Source of the DNA: Oscillospiraceae bacterium | GTDB taxonomy: Bacteria > Bacillota > Clostridia > Oscillospirales > Ruminococcaceae | Length of the DNA: 56,952 bases | Assembly (NCBI GenBank): GCA_022508885.1 | Contig: JAFLUG010000004.1 | Span: 3,901 to 60,852 of the forward strand | Direction of reading: 5' to 3' | Shown: positions 7,029-53,928 of the stretch, piece after piece | Layout of the letters: the number at the start of each line of letters is the position of its first letter | Numbering within the stretch: the first letter of the stretch is position 1 | Made by a program: the position numbers and the translations under genes | The notes under the pieces: generated by a model | The model's database searches: none | Told to the model about the DNA's origin: nothing | What the model saw: only the letters and a program-made list of their open reading frames with translations

Positions 7029-7064
7029 GTAATTAGGTCGAGAAAACATTTTGGTGATATTGAC

Positions 7065-7188
7065 AGACTGCCGATAAACCTCCATCTGCTTTATCAGCCA
7101 TGTCACGACAGCCACAAAGGCTAATCGCGACGCGGCTTAGGGAGATTGCTTGCAATATCCCGTGCATCCGGAGGCTTCTCGACAGTCT
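7065..7188. repeat. Interspersed repeat copy 2, in the mtaB leader
   Basis: Ends AGACTGCCGA (7065-7074) and TCGACAGTCT (7179-7188). The interior is closely related to copy 4 (52790-52922) in the opposite orientation, sharing ATGCACGGGATATTGCAAGC and ATCCCTAAGCCG when read on the minus strand. Chance frames through it encode an MHGILQA-type peptide that is not a real protein. Confidence 0.88.
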
Positions 7189-20074: not shown

Positions 20075-20203
20075 GTGTTTTTTTGAAAAAAATCGCTCAG
20101 AAAGCCATTTTCGTGAATTATACGTTAATTCGGTTGATAACTTTTGTGCGTTTCGACGGAATGAATGTTGATAATGTTGAAAAACATTGTTGAAAAATAC
20201 GAG

Positions 20204-23014: not shown

Positions 23015-23218
23015 AAATATTTCCCCTTTCATTATTATTTAATATAATAATCGCAGACTAAGGAGCGCGTGATATAGAAGCGCCGCACGATTCGGGCGTC
23101 TGCCTTTGGTAAAGCTTCGCATCTGAAACGAATTTCCAAAGGACGGAAGCCGTTTGCAAGCGGCTCGCCTTAACTGCGTTGATTTTCGGTTTTATTTCTC
23201 CCGGTGTTTAAAATCATC

Positions 23219-37609: not shown

Positions 37610-39586
37610 TTACTTCGCCATTATCTCGCATACTTTGTTTGAAAACTCCACGGGGTTTTCTATCGGCATTCCCTCGATAAGGAGCGCTTGGTTATAAAGC
37701 AAATCGGCGTAATCTCCCGCCTTGTCCTTGTCGTTCTCGTACAGCACTTTGAGCTTTTGGAATATCGCGTGGGCGGGGTTTATCTCGAGAATTTTCTCCG
37801 CCTTTGCGTTTTCGGCATTAGGCATAGCCGAAAGCACCTTCTCCATTTCGACCGACAGCATACCCTCGCTTGTGATGCAGACGGGGTGGTTTTTAAGCCT
37901 CTGCGAGAGCCGAACGGACTTTACCTTTCCGCCGAGCTTTTCGGTCATATAGTCGAACAGCGGCTTGTTGTCCTCCTGCTCCTTTTTTATCTCTTCCTTT
38001 TCCTCTTCGGTCTCGAGACCAAGGTCGTCTGCCGAGACTGACTTGAACTCCTTGCCCTTGTAATCGTGCATCATCTGCAGGCAGAACTCGTCCACGTTGT
38101 CCGTAAGATAAAGTATCTCAAAGCCCTTGTCGCGAACGCGTTCGGTCTGCGGAAGGCTTTCTATCCTCGAAACGCTCGAGCCGCTCGCAAAGTAGATGTA
38201 CTTCTGCTCGTCAGCAGCTTCAGCGGTATTCTCCGCGGGATTTTCGGCTGCTGCTTCGGCTGAATTCTCAGCGTTTTCTTCTTCGGCTTTTACGCCCTTC
38301 ATTCTCGAATAATACTCGGAAAGCGTTGTAGTTCCGCCGTTTGAGGTCTTGAACAACAGCAGGTCCTGAAGCTCGTCCTTGTTCATTCCATAGCTTTCGT
38401 AAATGCCGTATTTAAGCTGTATTCCAAACGCCTCGAAGAATTTTTCGTACTTCTCACGGTCGTTTTTCAGGCACTTTTTCAGCTCGTTCTTTATCGACTT
38501 CTCCACGCTCTTCGCGATTATTTTAAGCTGGCGGTCGTGCTGGAGCATTTCGCGGGAGATGTTCAGCGACAGGTCCTCGCTGTCCACAAGCCCCTTTACA
38601 AAGCTGAAGTAATCGGGAAGCAGGTCGGCGCATTTTTCCATTATCATTACGCCGCTTGAATACAATTGCAAGCCCTTTTCAAAGTTCTTCGAATAATAAT
38701 CATAAGGCACCTTTTCGGGAATATACAAAAGCGCCGAATATGTCGCCGTACCCTCGGTTTTCGTGTGGATATGCAAAAGCGGGTCGGTGTAGTCGTAAAA
38801 CTTGTCCTTGTAAAACTGATTGTACTCCTCGTCCTTAAGCTCGGATTTCGCCTTTTTCCATACAGGTATCTGAGAGTTTAAGGTCTCGGTGACGGTCTCT
38901 TTTTCGTACTCCGCGTCAACGCCGTCCTTGCCCGTGCCTTCTTTGAGCTTTTCGTGCTCCGTGTCCATAACGATAGGATAGCGGATATAATCCGAATAGC
39001 GCTTTACAAGCTCGCGGATCTTATATACCTGAAGATATTCGTCGTAGTTTTCTTCCTCCGCGTTTTCCTTTATCTCAAGCGTTATTGTCGTGCCGTTTTC
39101 GTCCTTTTCGGCTTCGGAGACAGTGTAGCCGTCCGCGCCCTCGCTCTGCCACATAAAAGCCTTGTCCGAACCGTAGGGCTTTGAGATGACAGTCACCTTT
39201 TTCGCCACCATAAACGCCGAATAAAATCCCACGCCGAACTGCCCGATAACGTCAACGTCCTCCGTCTTTTCGTTGTCGCGCTTAAACTCAAACGAACCGC
39301 TCTGCGCGATAGTGCCTAAGTTGTTTTCAAGCTCGTCGGCGGTCATTCCTATGCCGTTGTCGCTGATAGTAAGCGTTCTCGCGTCCTTATCCGCTTCGAG
39401 CTTTATTTTCATATCCGCGCGCGTAAGCCCGAGGTTTTCCTCCATAGACTTGAAATACAGCTTGTCGAGCGCGTCAGAGGCATTGGAAATAAGCTCGCGC
39501 AGAAATATCTCCTTGTGCGTATATATCGAGTTTATCATCATTTCAAGCAGGCGCTTGGACTCGGCTTTAAATTCCTTTTGTTCCAT
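37610..39586 (-). CDS. htpG: Hsp90 chaperone HtpG
   Basis: A 658-residue cytoplasmic ATP-dependent chaperone dimer. The GHKL ATPase domain shows E31/N35 ([13 protein letters not shown]), D76 (SDNGIG) and [12 protein letters not shown] (115-126). Middle domain and C-terminal dimerisation domain follow. It is about 30 residues longer than E. coli HtpG because of an Ala/Glu/Asn-rich insert (434-460) just before the conserved QKYIYF-ASG strand. The promoter is covered by a perfect CIRCE operator, so it is controlled by the heat-shock repressor HrcA. Confidence 0.96.
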
Positions 39587-39611
39587 ATAATTTCACTCCT
39601 GTTTTTAACTT

Positions 39612-39638
39612 TTAGCACTCTCGCTCTTTGAGTGCTAA
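39612..39638 (-). promoter_or_regulatory. CIRCE operator (HrcA binding site) of htpG
   Basis: TTAGCACTC (39612-39620), 9-bp spacer, GAGTGCTAA (39630-39638): a perfect CIRCE. It covers the predicted transcription start, so HrcA binding would block htpG until heat shock. Confidence 0.96.
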
Positions 39639-39642
39639 TTAC

Positions 39643-39670
39643 ATTATACTACTTTTTTGTGAAATGTCAA
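39643..39670 (-). promoter_or_regulatory. Sigma-A promoter of htpG
   Basis: On the minus strand TTGACA (39665-39670), 16 bp, TATAAT (39643-39648). CIRCE lies directly downstream. Confidence 0.9.
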
Positions 39671-39701
39671 GCGTTTTGGAAAATATTTCTTAAATTTTTA
39701 T

Positions 39702-39730
39702 TTGACGGTGATTTCATTTTTCCTTATTTT
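39702..39730 (+). promoter_or_regulatory. Candidate promoter of the small helical protein gene
   Basis: TTGACG (39702-39707), 17 bp, TATTTT (39725-39730). The -10 is poor, so this is tentative. Confidence 0.4.
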
Positions 39731-39790
39731 GTCAGAAATATTTTTCACGGCTTTGACCAAAATAATAAAAACCAAAGGAGTGAAAAGTTA

Positions 39791-40234
39791 ATGCCGAATT
39801 TTAAAAACCGCCAGAGCGCGGAGATATTGAACGCGGTCTACCGCAACGCACAGATGGCTTACGAGGCTTCAAACGACGTGCTTAAGGTATGCAAAAACAA
39901 CAACCTTTTCCTTGAGATACAACAAGAGCAGGCGCGCTATAAGAAAGTAAAGGACAACGCGAGAAGCGAACTTTTAAAGCGCGGAGCGGAGCCCGTCGAG
40001 GTTTCGCCCATGGGGAAAGCGATGTCGAAAATGGGCATAGCCATGAAGACCTTCAACAACCAGAGCGGCTCGAATATCGCGAAAATAATGTTTAACGGAA
40101 CGGCAATGGGAATTATAGATATCCAGCACGCCGTAAACCGCTCGCACGGCGCCGAACCGAAAATACGCGAGAGCGCCGAGCGCCTTCTCGACCGCGAGCG
40201 CGACTACTGCGAAAACCTTCGGAAATATTTATGA
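39791..40234 (+). CDS. Small helical protein of unknown function
   Basis: A 147-residue, mostly helical, basic protein without signal or membrane segment. The start is the ATG after AAAGGAGTG; a longer open frame from 39632 has no ribosome site. The layout (long N-terminal helix with LNAVYRNAQMAYEASNDVL, central GKAMSKMGIAMKTF, and a C-terminal RESAERLLDRERDYCENL helix) recalls ferritin-like DUF2383-type bundles that are common in spore-formers, but metal ligands are not obvious. It is divergent from htpG. Function not assigned. Confidence 0.65.
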   Translation: MPNFKNRQSAEILNAVYRNAQMAYEASNDVLKVCKNNNLFLEIQQEQARYKKVKDNARSELLKRGAEPVEVSPMGKAMSKMGIAMKTFNNQSGSNIAKIMFNGTAMGIIDIQHAVNRSHGAEPKIRESAERLLDRERDYCENLRKYL

Positions 40235-40333
40235 GAACTTTGCCCGAGCATATCCCCTGCGATATAAAAGCGGGACGCGGAAAAGCCGCCCGCGTCCCGA
40301 TAAAGTCCCGTGAAAAAGAGATCGAAAACTAAA

Positions 40334-40375
40334 AGCCTGTTCACATAACCTTTTTTCTGGTCGTGTGAACAGGCT
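40334..40375 (-). terminator. Terminator of the EAL/HDOD-FkbM operon
   Basis: A perfect 12-bp stem AGCCTGTTCACA (40334-40345)/TGTGAACAGGCT (40364-40375); on the minus strand it is followed by TTTTAGTTTT. A second GC-rich hairpin (CGGGACGCGG...CCGCGTCCCG) at about 40270-40300 lies beyond and has no T run. Confidence 0.8.
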
Positions 40376-40392
40376 CAGCTGTTGTATAATCT

Positions 40393-41127
40393 TTATCCCT
40401 CAGCGCTTACAGCTTTGTTATCAACAATGTTGTTCATTACCTCCAGCGCCCTTTCACGCTGAACAGCCGCGGTATTCGGGTCGCCGTTCATCTCACAGCG
40501 GATAAAAAACATTATATCGTCCGGACAGCCCTCAAGTCCCGCCTGACGCGCGAAGCTGAGAGAATTAAGCGAAATGCGGCTCAGCTCACCTTCCATAATA
40601 ACGCCCGTGTCTTTTCCGTATGCCTTGCTTATATACTCCATAAAACCGCCGTCGGAAATGATAAGCTGTCTGTACCTTGTGTCTATCTCAAGCGAGAGCT
40701 GGTCGTTCTGCGCGCGCTCGAAATCTCCTATAGCGTCCACAGAGATATCCGCGACGCTTACATTGACATGAACGCTTCCGTTATTGTCAAAATCGGGGCA
40801 GTACATCTCCAGCGCCTTTTCTATCTCAGCCGCTTTATTTTTCATCGGAGAGTTTTCGTCGGTTATCACAACCAGCACCATAAGGTCCTCCGCCTCGCGC
40901 GAAAACAGCAAAACGCATATTGTTACTATAACCGTAAGCACAAGCACGCCCAACAGTATAAAGCCCTTGTTTAAATCGAAAAACGCCTCGGCCTTCTGCC
41001 AGACGGTTATTTCGGGCGGTTCTTCGGATGTTTCCGGGATAAGCTCGCTTTCGCTTATGATGCCCTGCTTAAGCTTTAAAAGCTCGATCCTCTCCTGTCT
41101 GAGTTTCTCTTCTTCGTCCTTGTTCAT
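40393..41127 (-). CDS. Membrane-anchored protein of unknown function
   Basis: A 244-residue protein: charged cytoplasmic N-terminus (1-50, Glu/Lys-rich), one transmembrane helix (about 55-74), then a 170-residue extracellular alpha/beta domain. No catalytic motif is recognised. It is the last gene of the operon starting at 44414, separated from the previous gene by a repeat that may partly end transcription. Ribosome site GAGGAG. Confidence 0.65.
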   Translation of the reverse strand: MNKDEEEKLRQERIELLKLKQGIISESELIPETSEEPPEITVWQKAEAFFDLNKGFILLGVLVLTVIVTICVLLFSREAEDLMVLVVITDENSPMKNKAAEIEKALEMYCPDFDNNGSVHVNVSVADISVDAIGDFERAQNDQLSLEIDTRYRQLIISDGGFMEYISKAYGKDTGVIMEGELSRISLNSLSFARQAGLEGCPDDIMFFIRCEMNGDPNTAAVQRERALEVMNNIVDNKAVSAEG

Positions 41128-41169
41128 GATCTCCTCAAATATTCCTGCTTGTAAGAAAGCCTTATTTCA

Positions 41170-41211
41170 GGCTGTCAAAAAGCCCCCTGTCGGGGGCTTC
41201 TCGGCAGTCTG
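41170..41211. repeat. Interspersed repeat copy 3 (short form), acting as a terminator
   Basis: Ends AGGCTGTCAA (41170-41179) and TCGGCAGTCT (41202-41211) enclose only GCCCCC-TGTC-GGGGGC. On the minus strand it reads as a GC hairpin followed by TTTTTG, a good terminator for the gene ending at 41216. Confidence 0.8.
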
Positions 41212-41215
41212 ATTA

Positions 41216-41995
41216 TTATTGTTCTCCTACTTTATATACCTTCTCCAGCTTTATTTCGGGCGTAAGTCTGCCGTAGGTGTCATATGCTTCCATAACCGTA
41301 ACGCCCAGCGCGCCGTCGCTTATACTTGTGAAATTGAGCGGATTTGACGCGACGACCTCGTATGTAAAGCCGAGAGTGACAGAGGCTGTCCTGCCCGCGC
41401 TTCTGGTAAACACCACCCTGTATGTGTCGCACTCTCTGAACGCGAAAGCCGCGCCCGCGCCGTTGTCGAGAATTACAGGGTCTACGACATTGTTGCGCTC
41501 GATAAATTCGTATTCCCCGCTTTCGTCTATATCCTGCGAGTAGATGTTCTGAGCCGCGAGGACTACTCCGTTTGAAACGCCCGCGGTAAGGGTAAGGTTT
41601 CTGTAATAAAAATCCGGAACAGCCGGTTTTCCCTCTTCGTCAAGTCCGTTATACACGCTGCCCGTAAGGACAAAGGTGTTTTCGTCCACCTGCTCGAGGT
41701 CGAATAAAAACACAGGCGCGTAAATTATATTCTGATAGGTCGCGAGAATTTCCGTCATTTCCTCCGAGGAAAGCGTGCCGCTTTCACCGTCGTTTACTGC
41801 CGCGACTATCTGCGACAGCGTTTCGTCGGCGTTAAGGTCGGCTGTGTAGATCCGCGTGACCATACGGACATTTCCGCTTTCTCCTTTAAGATCTCCGCAG
41901 TAAATGAGGTCGCTTGAATTCAGCTCGAGGAAAATAAACACTCCCAGCGTCGCTATGATCAGGACCAGTATTATAATCGCCAGAACAACCTTCAT
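41216..41995 (-). CDS. Membrane-anchored protein of unknown function
   Basis: A 259-residue protein with an N-terminal signal-anchor (3-24) and an extracellular, beta-rich domain without cysteine pairs or known motifs. It ends in EIKLEKVYKVGEQ. It sits between the FkbM-like gene and another single-pass protein, so the three may form a surface or envelope unit. No function assigned. Confidence 0.65.
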   Translation of the reverse strand: MKVVLAIIILVLIIATLGVFIFLELNSSDLIYCGDLKGESGNVRMVTRIYTADLNADETLSQIVAAVNDGESGTLSSEEMTEILATYQNIIYAPVFLFDLEQVDENTFVLTGSVYNGLDEEGKPAVPDFYYRNLTLTAGVSNGVVLAAQNIYSQDIDESGEYEFIERNNVVDPVILDNGAGAAFAFRECDTYRVVFTRSAGRTASVTLGFTYEVVASNPLNFTSISDGALGVTVMEAYDTYGRLTPEIKLEKVYKVGEQ

Positions 41996-42049
41996 AGGAA
42001 AACCTGCTTTCTTTGTTTACTGAAAAATCAATAATGCCCCGCGCCTCTG

Positions 42050-43147
42050 TTATCTGCACACCGCGAACAGGTTTGTGTCCCAGTCGGGTATGTAAGGATT
42101 ATGGCGCATATAGAGCTTATATTTTTTGTTTATCGAATTTATAAGCAAAGGGAGCTTGTACATATCCTCGTTTCTATGATAAAGCGCGATATTTAGCTTC
42201 GGCGAGAAATTTACTATAGTTTCCTTTGCGCCCATTATCGCATTTTCCTCCGCGCCCTCCACGTCTATCTTTATGTAGCTGGCGCTCCCGCCCCTGAGCA
42301 TAGAGTCTACCTTTATCATCTTGACCTCGCGGAATCTCGCGGGATTGAGCGGCTCGCCCTTTTTCGGTTCGGCGGTGCTTCCTCTGCCCTTGCGCATGGA
42401 AAAAATAACGGAAGTGTCCTCGTTCCACGCTCCGCAGTTATACGCCTCGATAAGCGCGGAGCCGAGCATATAAAGCCTGCGCTTCATTTTTCGGAAGCTT
42501 TTGCTGTCAGGCTCTACGGCGTAAATTTTCTTGAACTGCATGGTGGTTTCGTTTAAAAACTCTATGACCGTGTCGCCGTCATACGCTCCCAAATCGACAT
42601 AAGTTTCCTCAATGCCGATGTTCAGAATATCAAACTTTTCCGAGGGGTCGGACTCCGCGTCGGTGAGATACTCGAGCTTTCCGCTGAGCTTATAGCGTAT
42701 AATATCCTCAAAGACCTTTTTCGACTGCGCGTCAGCCAACAGGTCGTACACTTTTTTCAACTCGTCGCGGTGTTCTTTGGCGAACTCAAGGTCAAAGACT
42801 CCCTCTCCCGCAACAGGAACATTCGGCGCGTAAAGCTCGTGCTTTTTCGAAATGCCGATGATATGCTCCATGACCTCGGGAATACTCGACCCAAAGCACA
42901 CAAGGATTATCACCTCTCCAAACTCCTCTTCTATTTCGGAGAGCTTTTTCACCTTGTAGCCCATAAAGCTGTGTCCGCGCACAAACTCGTCGCTTGCCAT
43001 TATCGCGTCCACATTTACGCCTATGCCGTCAAGGACGGATTTTATTTTCTCCGCGCCGTCGCCCATTCCGTAAAGCACGATCTTTTTATCCGTACTTTTC
43101 AGATGATCCCATAGGCACTCGTTTATTTCATCAAGAAAAAAAGCCAT
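42050..43147 (-). CDS. FkbM-family methyltransferase with N-terminal Rossmann-like domain
   Basis: A 365-residue protein. The C-terminal half is an SAM-dependent FkbM-type methyltransferase (ETYVDLGAYDGDTVIEFL motif I, then KIYAVEPDSKSFRKMKRR and YIKIDVEGAEENAIMGA). The N-terminal half (KIVLYGMGDGAEKIKSVLDG) looks like the nucleotide-binding fold seen in sugar-modifying enzymes. Such proteins often O-methylate surface glycans. The start has a weak ribosome site (AGGAC) and lies 24 bp after the EAL/HDOD gene. In flagellated bacteria, flagellin glycan methylation is one possibility, but there is no direct link here. Confidence 0.8.
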   Translation of the reverse strand: MAFFLDEINECLWDHLKSTDKKIVLYGMGDGAEKIKSVLDGIGVNVDAIMASDEFVRGHSFMGYKVKKLSEIEEEFGEVIILVCFGSSIPEVMEHIIGISKKHELYAPNVPVAGEGVFDLEFAKEHRDELKKVYDLLADAQSKKVFEDIIRYKLSGKLEYLTDAESDPSEKFDILNIGIEETYVDLGAYDGDTVIEFLNETTMQFKKIYAVEPDSKSFRKMKRRLYMLGSALIEAYNCGAWNEDTSVIFSMRKGRGSTAEPKKGEPLNPARFREVKMIKVDSMLRGGSASYIKIDVEGAEENAIMGAKETIVNFSPKLNIALYHRNEDMYKLPLLINSINKKYKLYMRHNPYIPDWDTNLFAVCR

Positions 43148-43171
43148 TGTGTTTTATCGTCCTTTATCCTA

Positions 43172-44350
43172 TCATCCGAAATCTACCCTGTCAGATTCTT
43201 CTATCGCCGAAACAAACATATCCGCCGCCTTGCGCGGGTCAATTCCGAGCGCTGCCGCGAGCGCCGTAAAATGCTCCCATTTTCCCATACAAAAGTCTAC
43301 CGCCATTCCGAAAACATCTCCGTAAAGTCCGCTCTTCCTCAAAATTCCGTTCTTTATATCATCCGTCAGCGGAAGTTCCGCCAACGCCGACGTAAGCAGT
43401 CTGTCGTTGCTGAATACGAGTACCGACATAAGCCCCATAAGATAAAACGCCTCTGTATCATTTTTCGCGCTGGGTATCTCTCCCGCAAGCATTCTGCAGA
43501 ATTTTGCCGTAATAAGCGCCAGCCTCATAAGCTCGCTGTTTTCGTTCTGCGAAATGTGCTGGATAGCCAGCATATATATCCACTCGCGCAGATAATCAAG
43601 CCCCAGAACTATGATCGCTTGTCCGATGGACGATATCTTATTTGTAACGCCGAAATACGCCGAGTTTATAAGCCTGAGTATTTTCTGACAGACCGCCGTG
43701 TCCTGCGACAAGACCTCTGTTATCTCGTCTACGTTAGACTCGGGCTTTGACATTATCTTCATAGCCTTTACAATGCTTATCGGAAGCGGCTGAAGATTAC
43801 GCAGATCTCTCTGCGGCTTAAGGAAAAAATCTCCCTGAAGATACGAGCAGCCTATTCTCTTGGCGTTTTCAAAATTCCCGTGAGAGCTTATGCTCTTTGC
43901 CAGAATACTCTTGTTTGTAAATCCGCAGATATACGCGGCGCTTTCCTGAGCCGTCAGCGGATTGGCAAAATCGAGCATGACAATGTCGCAAAGCTCTAAT
44001 ACCTCATCAAAGCCTCTTCCGCGCTTAAAATCGTCAAGAGCGAATGAATAGCCTTTCCTTTTCAGGTCGCGGCACGCCTCGACCGCGTCCCGGTCGCTCA
44101 AGATATCGCGCCCCGAGATGACCGCGACAACGCTGTCCGCGGAAAATCCCGCCAAAACGCCGTTTTTTATCTGATCGCGCGAAAGCTCCACAAGCGCCTT
44201 TGCCCCGCCGCAGACCCGCTGAAGATCAACGCCGAAAAAGCCCCCGGAGCCTGAAGACTCTGAGCCTTCAAGCCGTCTGTGTTTTATTTCATACGCGTAA
44301 AGTCCGCCGTCGCCGTGATAAACAGGCACGCGGGTAAGCAAACAATTCAA
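43172..44350 (-). CDS. EAL-HDOD signalling protein (YuxH-like)
   Basis: About 392 residues. The N-terminal part is a degenerate EAL domain: it starts TRVPVYHGDGGLYAYEIKHRR and lacks the EAL/ExLxR and metal-binding motifs, so c-di-GMP cleavage is unlikely. The C-terminal part is an HDOD domain (about 190-385). YuxH/CdgJ-type proteins act in motility and pilus control. The start is taken as TTG at 44350: GTG 44380 and ATG 44368 lie right at the transcription start without ribosome sites, while AAAGGGAG precedes this TTG at 7 nt. Head of a four-gene operon. Confidence 0.78.
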   Translation of the reverse strand: MNCLLTRVPVYHGDGGLYAYEIKHRRLEGSESSGSGGFFGVDLQRVCGGAKALVELSRDQIKNGVLAGFSADSVVAVISGRDILSDRDAVEACRDLKRKGYSFALDDFKRGRGFDEVLELCDIVMLDFANPLTAQESAAYICGFTNKSILAKSISSHGNFENAKRIGCSYLQGDFFLKPQRDLRNLQPLPISIVKAMKIMSKPESNVDEITEVLSQDTAVCQKILRLINSAYFGVTNKISSIGQAIIVLGLDYLREWIYMLAIQHISQNENSELMRLALITAKFCRMLAGEIPSAKNDTEAFYLMGLMSVLVFSNDRLLTSALAELPLTDDIKNGILRKSGLYGDVFGMAVDFCMGKWEHFTALAAALGIDPRKAADMFVSAIEESDRVDFG

Positions 44351-44385
44351 ACAGGCTCTCCCTTTCATACAATTATACACTATAC

Positions 44386-44414
44386 ATTATACAATAAACG
44401 CGGCTTTTTTTCAA
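44386..44414 (-). promoter_or_regulatory. Sigma-A promoter of the EAL/HDOD operon
   Basis: On the minus strand TTGAAA (44409-44414), 17 bp, TATAAT (44386-44391). A second TATAAT (44373-44378 region) lies at the start site. The short leader supports a TTG start at 44350. Confidence 0.85.
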
Positions 44415-44538
44415 GAGAAATAAAAATTTTCACCACATAAAAAGCGCTTTTTGTGAACTTTGCCTAAAACTGTTGGTCTAAAACTTCTTTTTTAAATAAA
44501 TAAAAATTTTGATTTGCGGCAGACGGCGGATATTTTTT

Positions 44539-44567
44539 GTATAAATGACTAAAAAAAGGCAAAACTA
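44539..44567 (+). promoter_or_regulatory. Sigma-F-like (forespore) promoter of the SpoIIQ-like gene
   Basis: GTATA (44539-44543), 14 bp, GGCAAAACTA (44558-44567). This fits the sigma-F consensus GYATA-N15-GGNNANAHTR at every fixed position with one base less spacing. No sigma-A promoter is seen before the gene, and spoIIQ is a classic sigma-F gene. Confidence 0.72.
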
Positions 44568-44624
44568 TCAGCAGGTTCGAGGAAACCGCAAACTCCCAAT
44601 CAACACAAAGGAAGGAAAGAATCT

Positions 44625-45338
44625 ATGAAGAATAAAAGGCAAAGTGAAAGTCAAAAGACAAAATGGCTGGCTATAATGACCGCCGCGGGCTCGGTGGCGG
44701 TATGCGCGGCAGTCATCGCGGCATACAGTGTGGCTATGAACAACCTTGTTCCGACCAACAACCGGACAGACCTTCTGGGCTCTTCGAGCTACAGCTCGTC
44801 TTCAAGCTCAAAGCCTGATACTCCCGTTAATAATCCCTCTGTCACTGTTCCAAAGGACAACAACTCGTCGTCCTCCTCCGCGTCCTCAAAGCCCGATGAC
44901 ACAGAGCCCGCAAACAATCCCGTAAACACGGTAAAAGGCAACATAATGCCGGTTGAAGGAGATGTAGATATCCCCTTCAGCAACGGCGAACTCGTAAAAT
45001 CCCCCACTCTCGGCGTATGGAAAACCCACGACGGCTCAGATATTCTCTGCCCGCTCGGAACAGATGTAAAGTCAATGTCCGACGGAGTTGTAAAGGAAAT
45101 ACGCGACGACGCGCTTATGGGAATTTATGTGGTCATCGAACAGACAAACGGGCTTGAGGTACACTACTGCGGACTCGCCAAGGAGCTTTCCGTAAAAGCG
45201 GGAACAGTCGTAGCCCAAGGGGAGATTATCGGAAAGACCTCCGACACCAACCAGTCCGAAATTCTCCAGCAGCCGCATCTCCACCTTGCCGTAAAGAAGA
45301 GCGGAGAGTGGATAGACCCCATGTCGGTCATAAGCTGA
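44625..45338 (+). CDS. spoIIQ: SpoIIQ-like LytM/M23 protein
   Basis: A 237-residue single-pass membrane protein: short basic cytoplasmic tail, helix (about 14-38), a Ser/Pro/Asn-rich linker (50-105) and an M23 LytM domain (106-237). The zinc ligands H135, D139 (THDGSD) and H220 (HLHL) and the second histidine H180 are intact, as in Clostridium SpoIIQ and unlike B. subtilis. SpoIIQ sits in the forespore membrane and pairs with SpoIIIAH to link both cells during engulfment. The promoter supports forespore expression. An alternative is an ordinary vegetative M23 peptidase. Confidence 0.78.
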   Translation: MKNKRQSESQKTKWLAIMTAAGSVAVCAAVIAAYSVAMNNLVPTNNRTDLLGSSSYSSSSSSKPDTPVNNPSVTVPKDNNSSSSSASSKPDDTEPANNPVNTVKGNIMPVEGDVDIPFSNGELVKSPTLGVWKTHDGSDILCPLGTDVKSMSDGVVKEIRDDALMGIYVVIEQTNGLEVHYCGLAKELSVKAGTVVAQGEIIGKTSDTNQSEILQQPHLHLAVKKSGEWIDPMSVIS

Positions 45339-45354
45339 GATACGGTTAAGAAAA

Positions 45355-45387
45355 CGGGAGAACCAAACCGGTTCTCCCGCTGTTTTT
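45355..45387 (+). terminator. Terminator of the SpoIIQ-like gene
   Basis: CGGGAGAACC (45355-45364)/GGTTCTCCCG (45370-45379), then CTGTTTTT. Confidence 0.92.
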
Positions 45388-45766
45388 ATACTTTCCTCCG
45401 TGTCAGGAAAATCCCGATAACCGACCCTATGAAAATAACCGGCGCCAATCTTGCAAACAGCCATTCAAACGAGTGATATACAGTTCCGACAACGGCGGTT
45501 TCGGGATCACTGTAATCCCAGCTTAAATATGGTCTGTCTAAAATCACTAAGACCGCAAATATTATTACTGTGACCGCGCATAATGAAATAAACAGCCAAT
45601 GAAGCATTTTTCGTCTTGCAGGCTTTCTCTGCGCAAGCTGTAAGTTTATAACCTCCAGTTTTTCGCAAATCGCTTTCAGGTCATCAGCTTTTGACTCGGT
45701 AACGGTTTCTCCAAGCAGAACACTTACGGGTGTTTCAAGTCTCAACCGAGACTTAAATATAAACAT
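45386..45766 (-). pseudogene. C-terminal half of an XRE-family regulator split by an insertion
   Basis: Residues from LETPVSVLLGETV onward form the linker, a helix (ADDLKAICEKLEVINLQLAQRK) and two membrane segments of an XRE transcription regulator with a C-terminal membrane part. The first ten residues (MFIFKSRLRL) come from inserted DNA and no ribosome site precedes the ATG. The matching N-terminal HTH half is at 47481-47657. Joining both at the shared CTTG (45736-45739 and 47498-47501) restores one 169-residue frame reading ...ISEVL|ETPVSVLLGETV... . The gene is therefore interrupted, not two genes. Confidence 0.75.
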
Positions 45767-45777
45767 GGAGGAAGAAA

Positions 45778-46122
45778 ATGATTACGGCAAAAATTCAGAA
45801 CGGCGAAAAAAGCACAGAGATTACCTTTCCGTGCAAGGAGCATATGTTGGCAAAAGCTCTGGACGGGATCGGCATAGACGGAAAGCAGTACGCTCCTACC
45901 CTGCTGATCACGAAAATCGAGCCTAAAGAACTGTCCATGCTTGAGAACGAGATGACAAATCTTGATGAGCTGAACTACCTCGCCAGGCAAATGAATAATT
46001 TTGGTCAATATGAGATGGAACGCTTCCTTGCGGCGGCAAGCTATGAAAACTCAGATGAAAAGCCGGATATGCAAGATATTATCAACCTTGCGTTAAATCA
46101 CGATTTTACACATTGCAACTAG
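45778..46122 (+). CDS. Small acidic protein, possibly ArdA-like (antirestriction)
   Basis: A 114-residue acidic protein 38 bp inside the insertion, with ribosome site GGAGGAAG. The pattern FPCKEHML..AL..IGI and TNLDELNYLARQMNNF resembles small ArdA-like or conjugative-element proteins of Clostridia, where ArdA mimics DNA to block restriction enzymes. The match is short and the last residues (NHDFTHCN) look abnormal, so the gene may be truncated. Its place in an inserted segment supports a mobile origin. Confidence 0.5.
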   Translation: MITAKIQNGEKSTEITFPCKEHMLAKALDGIGIDGKQYAPTLLITKIEPKELSMLENEMTNLDELNYLARQMNNFGQYEMERFLAAASYENSDEKPDMQDIINLALNHDFTHCN

Positions 46123-46148
46123 TAATTGGCGAAATTCTTGTGTTTAAT

Positions 46149-46191
46149 TTATTCTGCTTTTGCCACACTTCTGCAAGCAAAAGCAGAATAA
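46149..46191. terminator. Long hairpin after the ArdA-like gene
   Basis: TTATTCTGCTTTTGC (46149-46163)/GCAAAAGCAGAATAA (46177-46191), 15 perfect base pairs. No T run follows on the plus strand; it may be an end or transfer structure of the element. The next 180 bp hold no recognised gene; GTTATACCA and TGGTATAC near 46206 and 46258 could pair. Confidence 0.55.
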
Positions 46192-46374
46192 AGTGCCAAA
46201 GTAAGTTATACCATAGAAACTATTTTGTTTTCGCAAAGAATCACACAATCTTTTCCGTGGTATACAGTTTCATTTAAGGCGGGTTGGAAAAGTCAAAAAT
46301 ATATCTGATTCCAGCCTCCTTACCATCAACGATCACCATAATCGTTTCTCAAAACAGATTCGCTTGCAACGCCC

Positions 46375-46405
46375 TTGATAAAACGCGTTTTTGGTATTAT
46401 CCCCC
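46375..46405 (+). repeat. Single unit of the dispersed AAAACGCG repeat
   Basis: ATAAAACGCGTTTTTGGTATT followed by ATCCCCCC matches the 32-bp unit at 1190-1221 at about three of four positions. It is 9 bp from the end of the lipoprotein gene. Confidence 0.5.
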
Positions 46406-46413
46406 CAATATTT

Positions 46414-47370
46414 TTATTGAATCACCTCCAAATCAACGAGATTTGCGCTGAATCGTCTGGAGTAATTGAGCTCGTTGCGGAAATAAATGTTGTCTATGGT
46501 AACTTTAACGTCTACAAAAGACCCGTCATCGGGAAATTCTCCGAAATCAAGATTTGAATAATTATCGGCATTTCCGAGAACCATTGAAGAATACTCGCCC
46601 AACCAGCATAAACCGTTGTTCATACCCATGCTGAGCGCTTCGTTGCCGTTTTCATCCTGTGAATAATTCATGATCGGCAGCATATCACTCTGTGCATCCG
46701 GAATAAAATGGATATCCCTCGCGACTTCATATCCTTCGGTCTCGGGGTAAAGAAAGCATTTTCCCGTAAGAGTGATCTCGCCCTCAAATCGAGCTGTCCC
46801 ACCGTTAAAGTACTTTGGCGTCAGGTTAAACCAATCGGGATAAAAGCTTGTTGAAGCCTCGACCAATTTCAGACTGCCGAACATATCACCGACACTGTAT
46901 TTTTCGTATTTATAAGCAACGGTTTCGGGAGCGCCCGCAAAGGTATATTCATTTTCGTCAAAAACATCTGCGTTGTCAATGCTGTTGTAGTATATCCCAA
47001 GCGGTTCTGCGAGATAAACGTAATCGCAAATCACATACTGCCAATTATCGGCAGTCATTTCCGAAAGAGGGATCTCCCCGTTAATGCCGTTCACGACAGC
47101 GTTTTTTAGATCAACGGGATCGCCGCTCGGTAACTCGAACTGCGCGGTAATCTCGTTACCAATAACCGGATCTGATATATTGGTGAAACTGTTTGAATCT
47201 TCCGATGATTTGTCCGAAATAGGCTCGGATTTTTCGCTTGAAATATTCAAGGATGAGTTTTGATTTAAACTGTCGGCTTCACTCGGAAAGTTGATGTCGC
47301 TGCACCCCGCTATGAGCGAAAGAAGCATTACGGACATCGATAATGTTGTGATAGCAATATATTTTTTCAC
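46414..47370 (-). CDS. Lipoprotein of unknown function inside the insertion
   Basis: A 318-residue exported lipoprotein: signal peptide with lipobox LIAGC (cysteine near residue 23), a Ser/Asn/Glu-rich linker (25-65) and a beta-rich C-terminal domain. No homologous domain is recognised. The start is a GTG after TTGGAGGT. A TATAAT upstream near 47390 has no good -35. It is cargo of the segment that splits the XRE gene and is more AT-rich than the neighbouring core genes. Confidence 0.7.
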   Translation of the reverse strand: MKKYIAITTLSMSVMLLSLIAGCSDINFPSEADSLNQNSSLNISSEKSEPISDKSSEDSNSFTNISDPVIGNEITAQFELPSGDPVDLKNAVVNGINGEIPLSEMTADNWQYVICDYVYLAEPLGIYYNSIDNADVFDENEYTFAGAPETVAYKYEKYSVGDMFGSLKLVEASTSFYPDWFNLTPKYFNGGTARFEGEITLTGKCFLYPETEGYEVARDIHFIPDAQSDMLPIMNYSQDENGNEALSMGMNNGLCWLGEYSSMVLGNADNYSNLDFGEFPDDGSFVDVKVTIDNIYFRNELNYSRRFSANLVDLEVIQ

Positions 47371-47480
47371 AGCTAACCTCCAAGATTTAATTATAGATTA
47401 CGCAGTTTTTGTAAGAACGTTTTCAGATGAGCAGAATGTGTAAATTTGCCTGGTCTCACACAGTCCACGAGTTGATAACG

Positions 47481-47657
47481 TCATAAATCCAATTGGACAA
47501 GCACTTCCGATATAGTTATCAACATATCCGAGTCGGGTACCGACAAGCCGTTCTCCCATTTAGAGACAGTTTGCCTGACCACATTCAGCTTGACGGCAAG
47601 TTCTTCCTGTGAAAGACCTTTTGATTTTCTGACCGCTTTAATGTTTTCATTCAACAT
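47481..47657 (-). pseudogene. N-terminal HTH half of the split XRE regulator
   Basis: A 58-residue frame with a full XRE helix-turn-helix (NIKAVRKSKGLSQEELAVKL, then RQTVSKWENGLSVPDSDM). After ISEVL it runs into the insertion, reads VQLDL and stops. It keeps a good ribosome site (AAAGGAGG) and a sigma-A promoter, so a bare DNA-binding domain may still be made. The missing dimerisation and membrane part lies at 45386-45739. Confidence 0.8.
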
Positions 47658-47692
47658 CGTGGATAACCTCCTTTCCTTCAGTCGTTACCCAC

Positions 47693-47721
47693 ATTATACA
47701 AGAACCTGCCCGTTGCCGCAA
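47693..47721 (-). promoter_or_regulatory. Sigma-A promoter of the split XRE regulator
   Basis: On the minus strand TTGCGG (47716-47721), 17 bp, TATAAT (47693-47698). Start near 47686, leader about 30 nt. Confidence 0.8.
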
Positions 47722-47780
47722 GCAACGCATATTAACATCGGAGTATTTTACGGTAGATCGGAATATTTATTATGTCATTT

Positions 47781-48458
47781 TTATGCTCCAAATTCATAAT
47801 CGCTTATAATCAAATCGTAGTAAAGCGGAACCGAATTTATTTTTTCGGCGATGTCAACGGCGCTTTGCTTATCTAAATTGCCGCTTAAAAAAACCGTTTC
47901 GGTCATTATTCTGTCAGCTACACGAGGGGAGGATATCAGTTCGTCATCAAGCCATATCGATATGGGGATATCCGTTCCCGCAAGCTCCTCTGTCGCGCGC
48001 GAAAACACTTCAAACCCATATTCATCAAATTCGATCTGTACGCCGTAATGCCTTTGGGCTGTATCATATATGGCTTCCGCGCTTTTGATATTTTTATTGG
48101 TAAGGATAAGCTCGCCGTCAATACTGTCTCCCTTTCGGAACTCAAGCGAATTTCTGTCCGCAGCCGTTTCAATGAAATGTTCCGCCCATTTTTCCATGTA
48201 ATTAAAATTAAGCCGGACAGTATCGGTATCATATTCGATTATTATCCGATATTCCGGCGCAGGGTCGCTGCTCGTCACTCTGCTTTCAATGATACTTGCT
48301 ATCTCGTCAAGCTCGCTGTCCGTTACATTGCTTGCGGTAAAGCAAATAAAGCTGTCAAAATCAGACGCGTCCGATTCTCCTCTGTTTAGATTTTCTTCAC
48401 ACCCGCTCAACGCGAATATCATCAACGACAGTAATACTGTCAAGACCGTTCTTTTCAT
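47781..48458 (-). CDS. Orphan lipoprotein with a SecD P1-like domain
   Basis: A 225-residue lipoprotein (lipobox ALSGC near residue 20). The domain after residue 90 follows the extracytoplasmic P1 region of SecD: GELILTNKNIKSAEAIY, GVQIEFDEYGFEVFSRAT, ISIWLDDELISSPRV and FLSGNLDKQSAVDIAEKI. The membrane helices of SecD are missing, so this is a stand-alone soluble copy tethered by lipid. The ATG at 48458 follows GGGAGC; an upstream ATG is less likely. It ends the abi-terB-GH25 operon. Its role could be binding of secreted proteins outside the membrane; that is inference. Confidence 0.75.
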   Translation of the reverse strand: MKRTVLTVLLSLMIFALSGCEENLNRGESDASDFDSFICFTASNVTDSELDEIASIIESRVTSSDPAPEYRIIIEYDTDTVRLNFNYMEKWAEHFIETAADRNSLEFRKGDSIDGELILTNKNIKSAEAIYDTAQRHYGVQIEFDEYGFEVFSRATEELAGTDIPISIWLDDELISSPRVADRIMTETVFLSGNLDKQSAVDIAEKINSVPLYYDLIISDYEFGA

Positions 48459-48481
48459 TGTATTGCTCCCGAACATCCCGA

Positions 48482-49879
48482 TTATTTTTTAGAATAGTCG
48501 ATATACGCAATATTTAAATCAACGTCGCCCGAAATTCCCGAGACCCTGCCCTCGCTTGAATACTGCCACACGCCGTAGCTTCCGCGATAGGCGGGTCTGG
48601 TCGTTCCCCAGTGAGCTACCCACACCTCGTATTCCGAAAGCTTTGACATATTCAGCCTGTTGTTGAGCCACGAGGCGCTTGAATATATCATCGGCGTATA
48701 GCCCGCCTTTTTTATCTCCTCGCAGAATACCGCGGCTATCCTTGTAAGCTCGTCTACGCCAAGAGCCTCCTGTGTCCTGTCCTCTATATCCAGCACGATC
48801 GGGAAATCAAGCTTGTACGGCTCGAGCGCCTCAAGGAAGAACCTCGCCTCTGTCCGCGCGCTTTCAACCGTAGTTGCCTTACAGTAATGATAAACCCCGA
48901 CCTTTATCCCCGCGCGCTGAGCTTCGGTTATGTTGTAATAAAATGTCTCGTCGGAATAATAGTCGCTTACGGACGTCCTCAGAAACGCGAAATCGACTCC
49001 CGAAGCCTTTACCCTTTTCCAGTCGATAGCTCCCTGCCAATACGAAACGTCTATTCCCCTGAGCGTTTTAGGAGAGCCTGCCGAGTCTTGCTTGCTTGCT
49101 TCCGGAGCCGCTTCCGGTTCGGCTATTCTTTCGTCAAAAACTCTTCCTGTCTTTCCCGTGACAAACTGACCGTTGAGTATATCAACAGCGCCCTCTTTGA
49201 AGGTAAGCTCGCCGGTATTGTAAATTTTTCCCGAGAGATAGATGTAGCCCTCCGCCAACACTTTAGCGTTGAGAGTTGTGTTGAACGTACCCTTTACAAA
49301 CAGTTTTCCGTTTTTCAAAACGTCGTATTTCCCCGAAATCACCGCGTTTGCGCTGTTTGAAAAGGTCGTCGGGCCGGCGTTTTCGTATCTTCCCGACTTA
49401 TACAGATTTACTTTTCCTCCGAAAACCACGGCAGAGCTTTCGTTGTTGGAAAAATCTCCCGCAAGCATAACGGTAGATTTTCTCGTCGTGACAAATTCTC
49501 CGAAGCATTCTATCCTCGAGCCTTCATAAGCCGTAAATTCTCCCGAAACGGTCACTCTCGCGCCCTGCTCGATTATCAGCGCTCCCTCAAACGTGACGGC
49601 GCCGCCGACATATATCTGAAGCTCCCCGCCTTTTCTGACAGTCAAGATAGACGTCTTGGGAAAGGAGAAGCTTTCCTCTTCGTTTATCTTGACAACGTCG
49701 TCGATATAATAGTTAGCGAACGCTGTCGGCTCGAATTCGCCCGTAAAACGCGTATAGCCGTTTTCATCGACGAGCGGCACGTCCTCCGCGGCTTGGGCGA
49801 AAGCGCGGCCGGCGAAAAACACCGACGCCGTTACGGCAAAGATAAATATCATTGCTGCTTTAAAGAAGAATTTCATCAT
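48482..49879 (-). CDS. GH25 lysozyme fused to a beta-helix wall-binding domain
   Basis: A 465-residue secreted protein. Signal peptide (1-29, AFAQA cleavage), a repeat-rich beta-helix (about 75-240) of the polymer-forming type, a Pro/Ala/Glu linker (250-270), and a GH25 muramidase domain (274-460). Catalytic D277 (RGIDVSYWQG), D364 and E366 (PIVLDIED) are intact. It cuts the MurNAc-GlcNAc bond of peptidoglycan. The order beta-helix before lysozyme is unusual, as wall-binding repeats of GH25 enzymes are usually SH3 or choline types. Ribosome site GGAGAGCGC. Confidence 0.88.
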   Translation of the reverse strand: MMKFFFKAAMIFIFAVTASVFFAGRAFAQAAEDVPLVDENGYTRFTGEFEPTAFANYYIDDVVKINEEESFSFPKTSILTVRKGGELQIYVGGAVTFEGALIIEQGARVTVSGEFTAYEGSRIECFGEFVTTRKSTVMLAGDFSNNESSAVVFGGKVNLYKSGRYENAGPTTFSNSANAVISGKYDVLKNGKLFVKGTFNTTLNAKVLAEGYIYLSGKIYNTGELTFKEGAVDILNGQFVTGKTGRVFDERIAEPEAAPEASKQDSAGSPKTLRGIDVSYWQGAIDWKRVKASGVDFAFLRTSVSDYYSDETFYYNITEAQRAGIKVGVYHYCKATTVESARTEARFFLEALEPYKLDFPIVLDIEDRTQEALGVDELTRIAAVFCEEIKKAGYTPMIYSSASWLNNRLNMSKLSEYEVWVAHWGTTRPAYRGSYGVWQYSSEGRVSGISGDVDLNIAYIDYSKK

Positions 49880-49908
49880 GCGCTCTCCGTTCGTTTTAGT
49901 TTTTCAGC

Positions 49909-51834
49909 TCAGCGGTCAGCAAGAACCTTTTCCGCTATTTCATCGAGGTAATCTGAAACTATCCCGCCGTTTTCGATTATGATATCCCCGACCAATTCAA
50001 TCGCAAGCGCGTTTATTTTCTCGAAAACCGTTTCGGCGAAAAGTCCTTTTTCCCGACAGAATTCCGCGGCGCCGCCGCTTTCGCACATCGCCGCCAGAAG
50101 CCCGCGCTCAGTCTCGGAAAGCTCTTCCGTCAATCTCTCCCAGCCGCTTTTTTCTTCCGAATGACCGCTGAGCTCGCCGGAAAATTCGGAGGTATGATAC
50201 GATATTCTCTCGGAAAACTCGTCGTCCGAAATTCGGTTTGCCATGTCCTCGATCTCGGGAAGGTTTATCTCGTTTTCCTGCTCCGCGGCTTCCTGAACGT
50301 CCGCTTCTCCGACGATAAGCTTTTTGGCTATCTCGTCCGCCTGTTCTCTTATCTCGGAGAGCTTTGATATGTCTATCTCTACCTTTTCCGCCCGATAAAC
50401 AAATTCTTCGTCCGAGCTGGCCGAAAAGTTCTTTGATGTTTTTTTGGCGGCGACAATTCCGTTTTCATCGCAGAATCTGTCCGCCGCGCGTTCGATGGTT
50501 TTCTTAAACTCCTCGTCCAGAACAACTTCCGCGGCTTTCCCGCGGTTTTTTACGTCGTTTGAAAGCATGGCGGGATTGACCTTTATTTTTCTCCCGAAGC
50601 CTGTTTTTTCACGAAGCCGAGCTTCAGCGCTTTTGAGAATAAACCCGATTATTCCCCTCTGCAAAAGCAGAGAATATTCTTCCAGAGCGGGCTCGCCGCG
50701 CTTTATGCAATAGCTTTCCTCGGGGCTTATTTTTACGGGGCGAAAGCCGTCTGTTCTGTCCAGGTTTACGACCGCGCCCGAAAACTGCCGCCACGCGTAG
50801 TCCTTTTTCATCTGACCGCAGATGATCGTATCGAGCGCGATACCTTTCGCGGAGCAATACTCCGCAAGCTCTTTCAGCACAAGCTCCAGCGCCCCGTCAA
50901 TCAGCGGCGCGGTCTTTTCGGAATAAAACGAGCTTTCTTTTATGTTGTAGGCGGAGTTTTCCGCGAGAAAGTCCAACTTGTTTTTATAGTTTCCGCGCGA
51001 AATTTCTATGGCGCTTTTCCTCGCGTTATCCTCCTTGCTGTCTTTAAGAACTTCTCTCAGGTCGGGAAATTCTCCCGAAACGTTGTTGAACGCGTAGAAA
51101 TCCTTGAGCCACCGCGGAAGGACCTCTCCGAGGTATTTCCCGCAATTCAGCTTTCCCGCGTTTTTCCAAAGCTCCAACAGCTTTGAAAACGCCTCGTCGG
51201 AAGAGCTGACGCCTATTTTATTGAGAAGCTCGTAGACGTAAAGGATCACATACGATTTGTCTGTGTCGCGGTAAACTCCGCGCCTTACGTCGCTTCTCCA
51301 TGTAAAATAAGTCCTGAGCTGAGAGTTGGACATCGCCGCGTACATCGGCGTGGTCATTCCGAAAAACGCGTTTCGGGAAAAGTCGTCCTCAACGTCGGCT
51401 ACATATTCCCCCTGAAGCACAAAGGTTATCTCCGCGCACCGCTGAACGATATATCCGTTGTGGGTGGTCTCCTTCTGCTTTCTCATTCCGAGTATCTTTT
51501 CATTTACCGCTATATCGTGCGGGGATAAATTTTCTCCGACGCTCTCGTGAGGATAGGCTATCTCGTCGGCGTCAAGCGCGAAGTCTTGTTTTCTTTCATA
51601 AGCGCCGGTTTTTCTCGGGGGAATTTTCTCCGCCTTTGCCGGATAGTCGAACGCTTCTTTTACCGCGCCGCGAATGGTACTGCGAACCTCTTTCCTTATT
51701 TCTTTCTTTACTTCACGCGTTATATCGCTGACTACGGAATCGGCGGTTTTTGACAGCATTTTGCCTATCTGCTTTTTTATCTCGTCGAGGCTCTTTCCGC
51801 CCGTGTCGATAAACTTCTTAAAATCATTGGGCAT
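49909..51834 (-). CDS. TerB_N/TerB_C-domain protein
   Basis: A 641-residue cytoplasmic protein. The TerB-N domain is recognised around residues 165-300 (MSNSQLRTYFTWRSDVRRGVY, YVILYVYELLNKIG) and a TerB-C-like domain in the last 90 residues (GWERLTEELSETERGLLAAM). The N-terminus has an amphipathic Lys/Glu helix (15-65). TerB-N/C proteins are found in tellurite-resistance-like and phage-defence islands with unclear biochemistry. It lies 21 bp after the Abi gene and 29 bp before the lysozyme gene, so all are in one operon. Confidence 0.78.
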   Translation of the reverse strand: MPNDFKKFIDTGGKSLDEIKKQIGKMLSKTADSVVSDITREVKKEIRKEVRSTIRGAVKEAFDYPAKAEKIPPRKTGAYERKQDFALDADEIAYPHESVGENLSPHDIAVNEKILGMRKQKETTHNGYIVQRCAEITFVLQGEYVADVEDDFSRNAFFGMTTPMYAAMSNSQLRTYFTWRSDVRRGVYRDTDKSYVILYVYELLNKIGVSSSDEAFSKLLELWKNAGKLNCGKYLGEVLPRWLKDFYAFNNVSGEFPDLREVLKDSKEDNARKSAIEISRGNYKNKLDFLAENSAYNIKESSFYSEKTAPLIDGALELVLKELAEYCSAKGIALDTIICGQMKKDYAWRQFSGAVVNLDRTDGFRPVKISPEESYCIKRGEPALEEYSLLLQRGIIGFILKSAEARLREKTGFGRKIKVNPAMLSNDVKNRGKAAEVVLDEEFKKTIERAADRFCDENGIVAAKKTSKNFSASSDEEFVYRAEKVEIDISKLSEIREQADEIAKKLIVGEADVQEAAEQENEINLPEIEDMANRISDDEFSERISYHTSEFSGELSGHSEEKSGWERLTEELSETERGLLAAMCESGGAAEFCREKGLFAETVFEKINALAIELVGDIIIENGGIVSDYLDEIAEKVLADR

Positions 51835-52737: not shown

Positions 52738-52789
52738 AAAATCACCTCAGAAGAAAAGTTGGGCTTATAACAAGAAATCGGCGTGTTAC

Positions 52790-52922
52790 AGGCTGTCGAG
52801 AAGTCCCCAGATGCACGGGATATTGCAAGCAAAATCCCTAAGCCGTGCCACGGCTAACCATCTGGTTGCCCATAAATTCAAATGTGCGGCTGACAAAGCA
52901 GAGAGGGGCTTATCGACAGTCT
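52790..52922. repeat. Interspersed repeat copy 4 (133 bp)
   Basis: Ends AGGCTGTCGA (52790-52799) and TCGACAGTCT (52913-52922). The core matches copy 2 (7065-7188) in reverse orientation, including ATGCACGGGATATTGCAAGC. It lies in the gap between gpsA and the Abi gene, 4 bp after the gpsA stop. Confidence 0.88.
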
Positions 52923-52926
52923 GTAA

Positions 52927-53928
52927 TCAGTCTATCCAATACAGCTCGCGCTCATGCTTTGATTCCCTGTTCATAAGCGCCGAAATGCTCTTTTTCGGGT
53001 CGCCGTCCTCAAAGCAAATTTTTACTATCTGCTCGATAATAGGCACGTCTACGTTGTTTTCTCTTGCAAGCCGAAAAGCCGTGCGCGCGTTTGTATAGCC
53101 CTCGACGGTCCCTACCTGAGCTACCGCCTCAGCCGCGGGCATACCTTTTCCTATAAGATTTCCCGCACGGAAATTGCGCGAGTGCTGCGATGTGCAGGTG
53201 ACGATAAGATCGCCGAAACCAGCCATGCCCGTAAAGGTTTTCCAGTTTGCACCGAGAGCCACGCCAAGGCGCGTAATCTCGGTCATTCCGCGCGTCATAA
53301 GGGCGGCCACGGTGTTGTCGCCAAGCCCCATTCCGCGGGCAATTCCGCAGCCGAGCGCTATGGGGTTTTTCAGAACTCCGCCCAGCTCGCACCCGCAGAC
53401 GTCGTCGTTTGTGTAAATTCTGTAACACTCGTTTGAGAGTGTCTGCTGGATATACTCGGCGGTCTCTTTGTCATAGGCCGCGCAGACCTCGGTCGTCGGC
53501 ACAAACCTCGCTATCTCCTCCGCGTGACATGGACCCGTTATAACGGCTATCCTGTTGTTGGGAAGTTCCTCGCGAAGAAGCTGTGAAAGCCGCTTTCCCG
53601 TGCTTTCCTCCAACCCCTTGCTGGCGTTTACAACGACTGTTTCCGGGCGGATATATTCCTTTACCGTGCGTATCGCCTCGCGGTAAAACGCCGAGGGAAT
53701 GCAGACTACGATAATATCCGCACTTGAAACGATTTTCGGGTCGGTAGTCACGCCCAATTCGTCCGGAAGCTTTACTCCCGGCAAGAGCCTTTTATGCTCG
53801 CGCTCGGCGCGGAGCTGTTCCGCTTCTGCCTCGAATTTTGTCCATGTAGTCACGTCATGGCCGTACCTTGTGTACAAAACTCCCAGAGCCGTGCCGTAGC
53901 CGCAGCCTAAAATCGCGATCTTCGCCAT
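52927..53928 (-). CDS. gpsA: Glycerol-3-phosphate dehydrogenase (NAD(P)+)
   Basis: A 333-residue cytoplasmic enzyme making sn-glycerol-3-phosphate from dihydroxyacetone phosphate for phospholipids. N-terminal Rossmann motif GCGYGTALG (8-16), VNASKGLE and ITGPCHAEEIA in the middle, and the substrate-site block LKNPIALGCGIARGMGLGDN with the catalytic lysine. The product is used by PlsY, encoded two genes upstream. Ribosome site AGAGGGAT. Confidence 0.96.
   Translation of the reverse strand: MAKIAILGCGYGTALGVLYTRYGHDVTTWTKFEAEAEQLRAEREHKRLLPGVKLPDELGVTTDPKIVSSADIIVVCIPSAFYREAIRTVKEYIRPETVVVNASKGLEESTGKRLSQLLREELPNNRIAVITGPCHAEEIARFVPTTEVCAAYDKETAEYIQQTLSNECYRIYTNDDVCGCELGGVLKNPIALGCGIARGMGLGDNTVAALMTRGMTEITRLGVALGANWKTFTGMAGFGDLIVTCTSQHSRNFRAGNLIGKGMPAAEAVAQVGTVEGYTNARTAFRLARENNVDVPIIEQIVKICFEDGDPKKSISALMNRESKHERELYWID

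Follow-up and report, generated by a model that had tools for sequence, protein, structure and literature searches.

The analysed window is a stretch of 56,952 nt, and the locus described here lies well within a 60.9-kb contig of the host assembly (G000; 2.28 Mb in 176 contigs, 90.6% completeness and 3.2% contamination). The remainder of the window appears to be ordinary chromosome, with translations that read as pilus, flagellar and housekeeping-type genes. On the minus strand, positions 45386–47657 contain codons 1–53 of an XRE regulator gene, an inserted segment and the remainder of the regulator, in this order (Table 1). The ORF of the 5′ part consists of the native codons 1–53 followed by VQLDL and a stop codon supplied by the insert. 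A GGAGG motif is situated 5′ of its ATG and TATAAT at 47698–47693, in agreement with the first-pass annotation, which had placed both halves on the same strand with an intact promoter and ribosome site. The HTH half and the intact protein of the related genome G012 reached 56.5 and 57.8 bits with HTH_3, respectively, against a Pfam cut-off of 23 bits, and the gene was thus assigned to the XRE type. In the membrane half, an in-frame ATG was found at 45766, within the insert, and an evident ribosome site is absent from the sequence.

Table 1. Features of the interrupted XRE regulator locus in window coordinates
Feature	Position	Strand	Remarks
XRE 5′ part, HTH domain	47481..47657	-	ORF, 58 codons; PF01381, E 2.9e-15
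CTTG, left copy of 4-bp direct repeat	47498..47501	-	CAAG on + strand; single in G012
Inserted segment, 1758 bp	45740..47497		From comparison with G012; G+C 41.8% vs 48.2% in the window
Lipoprotein gene, 318 aa, LSLIAGCS lipobox (by reading)	46414..47370	-	ORF; large genus family
16-bp perfect inverted repeat, candidate bidirectional terminator	46148..46192		Between the convergent genes
ArdA-like gene, 114 codons	45778..46122	+	First ~107 residues of ~480-aa proteins
Inverted repeat AAGTCTC-AACC-GAGACTT	45737..45754	+	Right junction, upstream of the ArdA-like gene
CTTG, right copy of 4-bp direct repeat	45736..45739	-	CAAG on + strand; single in G012
XRE 3′ part, linker and two hydrophobic segments (by reading)	45386..45739	-	347/354 bases as in G012

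The insert carries two convergent genes, for a lipoprotein on the minus strand and for an ArdA-like protein on the plus strand. The inverted repeat between them exceeds the loop limit of 8 set in the terminator scan, and hence it is not among the sites of that scan. Eight more small ORFs inside the insert or across its edges gave no Pfam match at 0.01. In the scanned ORFs of the insert, domain searches recognised neither a recombinase nor a transposase, and the first reading had likewise noted that there is no transposase. Rfam returned nothing for the insert and two sub-threshold matches outside it (RF02527, 22.7 bits against 80, and RF01129, 17.6 bits against 45).

The empty site was found in G012, a congener with the same neighbourhood. 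In a DNA search of 61 genomes, contig C81 of G012 matched query positions 1–160 and 1919–2272 with a four-base overlap. This contig is contiguous in comparison with window positions 38380–45739 (94.6% identity) and 47498–51804 (93.4%), and the alignment leaves a gap of 1758 in the window and of −4 in G012, which corresponds to one shared CTTG. The flanking blocks are 93–95% identical, and the 1-kb stretches outward from each junction reach 96.6–96.8% identity. Here the XRE gene is uninterrupted (169 codons, L008 1345–1854), with the same neighbours on either side, and the 3′ half follows the 5′ part in frame. Consequently, the proposal that an XRE gene had been split by an insertion was confirmed, as was the predicted existence of an uninterrupted 169-residue homologue and an empty site. 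The window halves align end to end with the G012 gene over one CTTG, so the join in frame with no base lost or gained, also predicted, was found as well. The 169-residue protein has, in addition, a 100% match in JAFLUF010000049.1 (L118, Oscillospiraceae bacterium isolate HAN072).

CTTG is present at both junctions, as had been noted from the letters (CAAG on the plus strand), that is, twice in the filled site and once in the empty one. This is the pattern of a target-site duplication, and shared microhomology would look alike. The net insert is therefore 1758 bp, and the length of 1762 bp given at first holds when one CTTG copy is counted. The chance of a junction overlap of at least 4 bp is 0.016, and the repeat was therefore probably produced by the insertion process itself, through target duplication or through microhomology. 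It should be noted that the filled site is known from one assembly.

Comparison of the halves with the G012 gene revealed 0 differences in 160 bases and 7 in 354, with a single effect on the protein (V59T). Since both halves are free of stop codons and share 168 of 169 residues with G012, the gene has escaped decay, and by this measure the insertion looks recent. Of the seven differences, five are clustered within 10 bp beside the junction, at window 45713–45722 (codons 58–61); under random placement, the chance of such a cluster is 2e-5. At the same codons, the orthologue of G063 (77% protein identity over 168 residues) carries GTAAGCGTTCTGCTTGG, which is one base off the window. A template-switch scar was considered for this cluster and set aside in view of the near-identical G063 allele. 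A short recombination tract or a shared polymorphism would be simpler, and allelic recombination near the site is plausible.

In six more genomes (G029, G033, G045, G050, G049 and G054), both XRE halves lie side by side and the gene is apparently intact; at the joins, the two matches overlap by up to 5 bases or leave up to 21 bases unaligned, and the G054 gene is cut by a contig end. The best 80 of at least 533 XRE relatives, from Oscillospiraceae to Listeria cossartiae, all cover at least 167 of the 169 residues. These 80 were kept by E-value and broken copies would rank lower, so the sample favours intact ones. The XRE-HTH/membrane regulator gene is widespread in Firmicutes.

Other differences between G000 and G012 were found within the window. 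Short palindromic repeats with GACTGTCGA-like ends occupy 7064–7188 and 52747–52928 and are missing at these places in G012, which contains many diverged copies of the 7064–7188 repeat. A 109-bp palindrome-like insertion with AAGGAGCG/GCTCGCCTT ends (23060–23168) is also missing here in G012 and has diverged copies elsewhere in that genome. Near 20197 (L198/L199), G012 has about 610 bp more than the window, a gene-like stretch of a 21-bp tandem repeat (GACAGATTAGACACGATAGAC) which is partly N.

The ArdA-like protein gave full N-terminal matches to relatives at 38–44% identity, and matches were found in 19 of 43 genus genomes, the window's own included. With PF07275 it reached 14.5 bits, below the gathering cut-off of 27, and one of the 13 members of A3 matched this family, with the same E-value (0.055) as the window sequence; a 483-aa relative (L016) matched no Pfam family at 0.1. 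We use the label "ArdA-like" because of this sub-threshold match and the annotation of a related gene on a Monoglobus plasmid (34.9% identical, "antirestriction protein ArdA"). The earlier description of the cargo as an ArdA-like and a lipoprotein gene thus stands as regards the presence of both genes, while the ArdA label stays under the Pfam threshold. A naturally short form was considered, since L057 also stops at 113 codons, but it does so through a frameshift. The ORF is open over 114 codons in spite of about 40% identity to its relatives, and could thus be a functional short gene in its own right, as opposed to a recently truncated version of these relatives.

The inverted repeat upstream of the ArdA-like gene has its outer AAG inside the right CTTG copy. 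Short inverted repeats 5′ of ArdA-like genes were found in ten relatives (L036, L038, L043, L044, L045, L047, L053, L054, L063 and L017), most of them followed by an AAATAT-type box and GGAG. The stem sequence varies between loci, and the complementarity is mostly kept. A script requiring perfect stems of at least 6 bp covered nine distinct hairpin-type loci and flagged seven of them; inspection by eye added L043 and L054, and direct comparison added L017. L058 and L030 were flagged with stems elsewhere and left uncounted. In nine of the ten hairpin-type loci, the 3′ end of a tRNA or tmRNA lies 438–626 bp from the start codon, and in eight of the nine tRNA-adjacent ones, L038 being the exception, a run like ACAAAAAAGATATTATGCCC occurs shortly past the tRNA CCA. 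Among 20 other ArdA-like loci, which were not counted as hairpin-type, a tRNA was present within the fetched stretch in eight. We infer that the region from hairpin and ArdA-like gene to tRNA would represent, in these relatives, the end of a tRNA-integrating element.

The insert resembles the genus ArdA-like genes near tRNA in its hairpin, AAATAT-like box, GGAG and N-terminal ~107 residues. In contrast to them, its gene has 114 codons, is situated inside a regulator gene and is not accompanied by the hairpin-to-tRNA stretch, as the boundary of the insert coincides exactly with the outermost hairpin base. No tRNA was found in the window that could mark an ICE-like attachment end. Based on the missing stretch and the missing tRNA, integration of such an element through its own ends does not account for the insert. 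CTT forms the outer hairpin stem in L053, L063 and L017, and for this reason part of the right CTTG probably came with the inserted DNA, pointing to microhomology at this junction. The hairpin itself may be an operator, a leader hairpin or a single-strand promoter located at the end of a mobile element. According to PMC11541004, Frpo-type single-strand promoters precede leading-region genes, and ArdA is among the early-expressed ones.

The family of the lipoprotein has matches in 30 genomes out of the 43 of the genus (its own included), with up to 12 matches per genome; five matches are present in G000 and none in G012. Members were examined at loci L066–L094, L096 and L097. No model of Pfam, NCBIfam, PHROG or PADLOC matched the window member. 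Its AlphaFold model has a confident beta-rich body at residues ~71–318 (whole-chain mean pLDDT 81.7, pTM 0.72), and in a comparison with the PDB none of 531 matches reached an E-value of 0.001 or better. Contig C140 of G000 carries two tandem paralogues (L096 4223–6286), each missing from the otherwise collinear G012 locus L109. Imperfect repeats with GTCTTGTGCG, which includes CTTG, flank the second paralogue, and in place of the other there are about 20 bp. The stretch shared there is longer than the 4 bp of the insert, and the ends at C140 differ from those of the insert. For the paralogues on C139, the G012 match stops at the end of the G012 contig. The idea that lipoprotein genes travel as one type of cassette was rejected, as BLAST matches were confined to the body of the insert's gene, with no common ends.

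The ends of the insert are TCCAATTGGATTTATG... and ...GGTTGAGA; both start with TC inward, and a 10-bp palindrome, TCCAATTGGA, abuts the left end and a 7-bp hairpin the right one. A search for other copies of these ends had been recommended, and among the 43 genus genomes the left 131 bp and the central 291 bp of the insert matched only G000. The exact left-end 24-mer was absent from the genome contig collection, which may not include the genome of the window itself. DNA searches of phage and plasmid collections gave nothing similar to the insert, and relatives of either cargo protein were not found in viral contigs. The host assembly was searched for a partner enzyme of the Y1 type, with one match, an IS200-like copy. 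This element (L200, about 1270–2010) has a 154-aa Y1 transposase ORF with hairpins on both sides and adjoins a gene that reads like the ribosomal L7/L12 of G000. Of 18 other G000/G012 gaps, 11 were read, one of them a run of N in G012, and none had CTTG at both edges; CTTG as a general target was rejected on these grounds.

Based on the above results, we suggest that a one-off, recent capture of DNA from the mobile pool split and inactivated a widespread XRE regulator gene, with a probability of about 0.72. The segment would be passenger DNA from the mobile gene pool, which may have arrived once via an enzyme or a repair process working in trans. Microhomology could have assisted at the right junction, since both the target CTTG and the hairpin stem of several relatives contain CTT. 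The ArdA-like part would have been severed at the hairpin upstream of it and reduced to the N-terminal ~107 residues. A transposase or a site-specific recombinase also leaves behind a clean 4-bp repeat, with no loss of bases.

One unlikely alternative is a non-autonomous cassette which inserts 3′ of CTTG, ends in CTTG, is moved in trans by a single-strand transposase (IS200/IS605- or IS91-like) and can be excised precisely, its predicted circle junction being GAGACTTGTCCAATTGG. Non-autonomous derivatives of IS200/IS605 insert 3′ of a short target, bear a hairpin near the end and form a seamless junction, and the insert is like them in these respects: it has CTTG at both edges with no base lost, the hairpin at its right end and the palindrome at its left, and the host does possess one Y1 transposase. 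However, the hairpins of the resident IS200-like element, e.g., CCACCGCTTCAAGCGGTGG (by eye), are of other sequence, and movement by it was disfavoured on account of these different ends; the left end occurs in one of 43 genomes, the window's own, and not in the multiple copies of an IS200/IS605 derivative. Moreover, in relatives a hairpin like that at the right end is part of the ArdA-like locus, and there the sequence continues beyond it; the other gaps read were free of paired CTTG. IS91-like rolling-circle elements use CTTG or GTTC as the target tetranucleotide, and the insert shares this target but contains no recognised Y2 transposase. The resemblance to either group appears to rest on general target rules and on one hairpin explained by its gene.

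Somewhat less probable again is an insertion by some DDE transposase with a 4-bp target duplication and degenerate or very short terminal inverted repeats. The flanking direct repeat and the TC at both ends would be consistent with it, but no inverted repeat joining both ends was present among the 25 longest of 50 pairs, no transposase was recognised inside and no other copies were found.

We regard as very unlikely a minimal two-gene cassette with no recombinase of its own, moved in trans into CTTG sites, in which the ArdA-like hairpin serves as a recombination end and precise exit leaves the regulator reversibly inactivated in part of the population. The insert is tidy, with two complete-looking units, a shared terminator-like repeat and closely trimmed ends, which may fit a compact cassette equally well. 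If excision were true, this would be a compact recombinase-less switch. The non-autonomous, possibly excisable element acting as a genetic switch that the first-pass annotation had envisaged is not supported: the left end and the middle had no further copy among the 43 genomes, and the search for a Y1 partner gave none with matching ends.

An assembly artefact is still less probable. A chimeric contig would be conceivable in a fragmented metagenome assembly with the contig number, completeness and contamination given above, and the G+C content of the insert is lower. However, gene halves that abut exactly and a 4-bp repeat, inside a long contig, are an unlikely product of misassembly, and a lipoprotein paralogue with 56% identity is located elsewhere in the same assembly.

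Two Bacillus insertions offer a comparison for a developmental or environmental switch. The skin element interrupts sigK and its removal restores the gene; skin in sigK and SPβ in spsM likewise involve a split gene whose frame is restored by precise removal of the insert. Such a switch is the least probable of all the readings and was rejected: the frame is restored in the empty site and the gene halves are undamaged, but SPβ, according to PMC4191935, carries and needs for excision its own recombinase and helper, sprA and sprB, whereas in the scanned ORFs of this 1.76-kb insert no site-specific recombinase was recognised, there are no other copies, and conservation is lacking, the insert being present in no other genus genome searched.

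Returning to the capture of mobile-pool DNA, what happened at this locus was most likely a neat but ordinary disruption by insertion and not a reversible switch. The regulator gene is most likely non-functional now, and loss of its function is expected, or at most a soluble HTH fragment would be left. The promoter side could still drive the 58-codon HTH fragment, with its last five residues encoded by the insert. Deprived of its membrane half, the regulator would either be inactive or persist as a short DNA-binding fragment.

The locus provides a clean before/after pair that documents the disruption of a gene in an uncultured Oscillospiraceae lineage of gut type. Genes related to the mobile pool have landed here in a conserved regulator, and the insert contains no recognised transposase. 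The conserved hairpin before ArdA-like genes near tRNA genes is perhaps a more useful result than the split gene.
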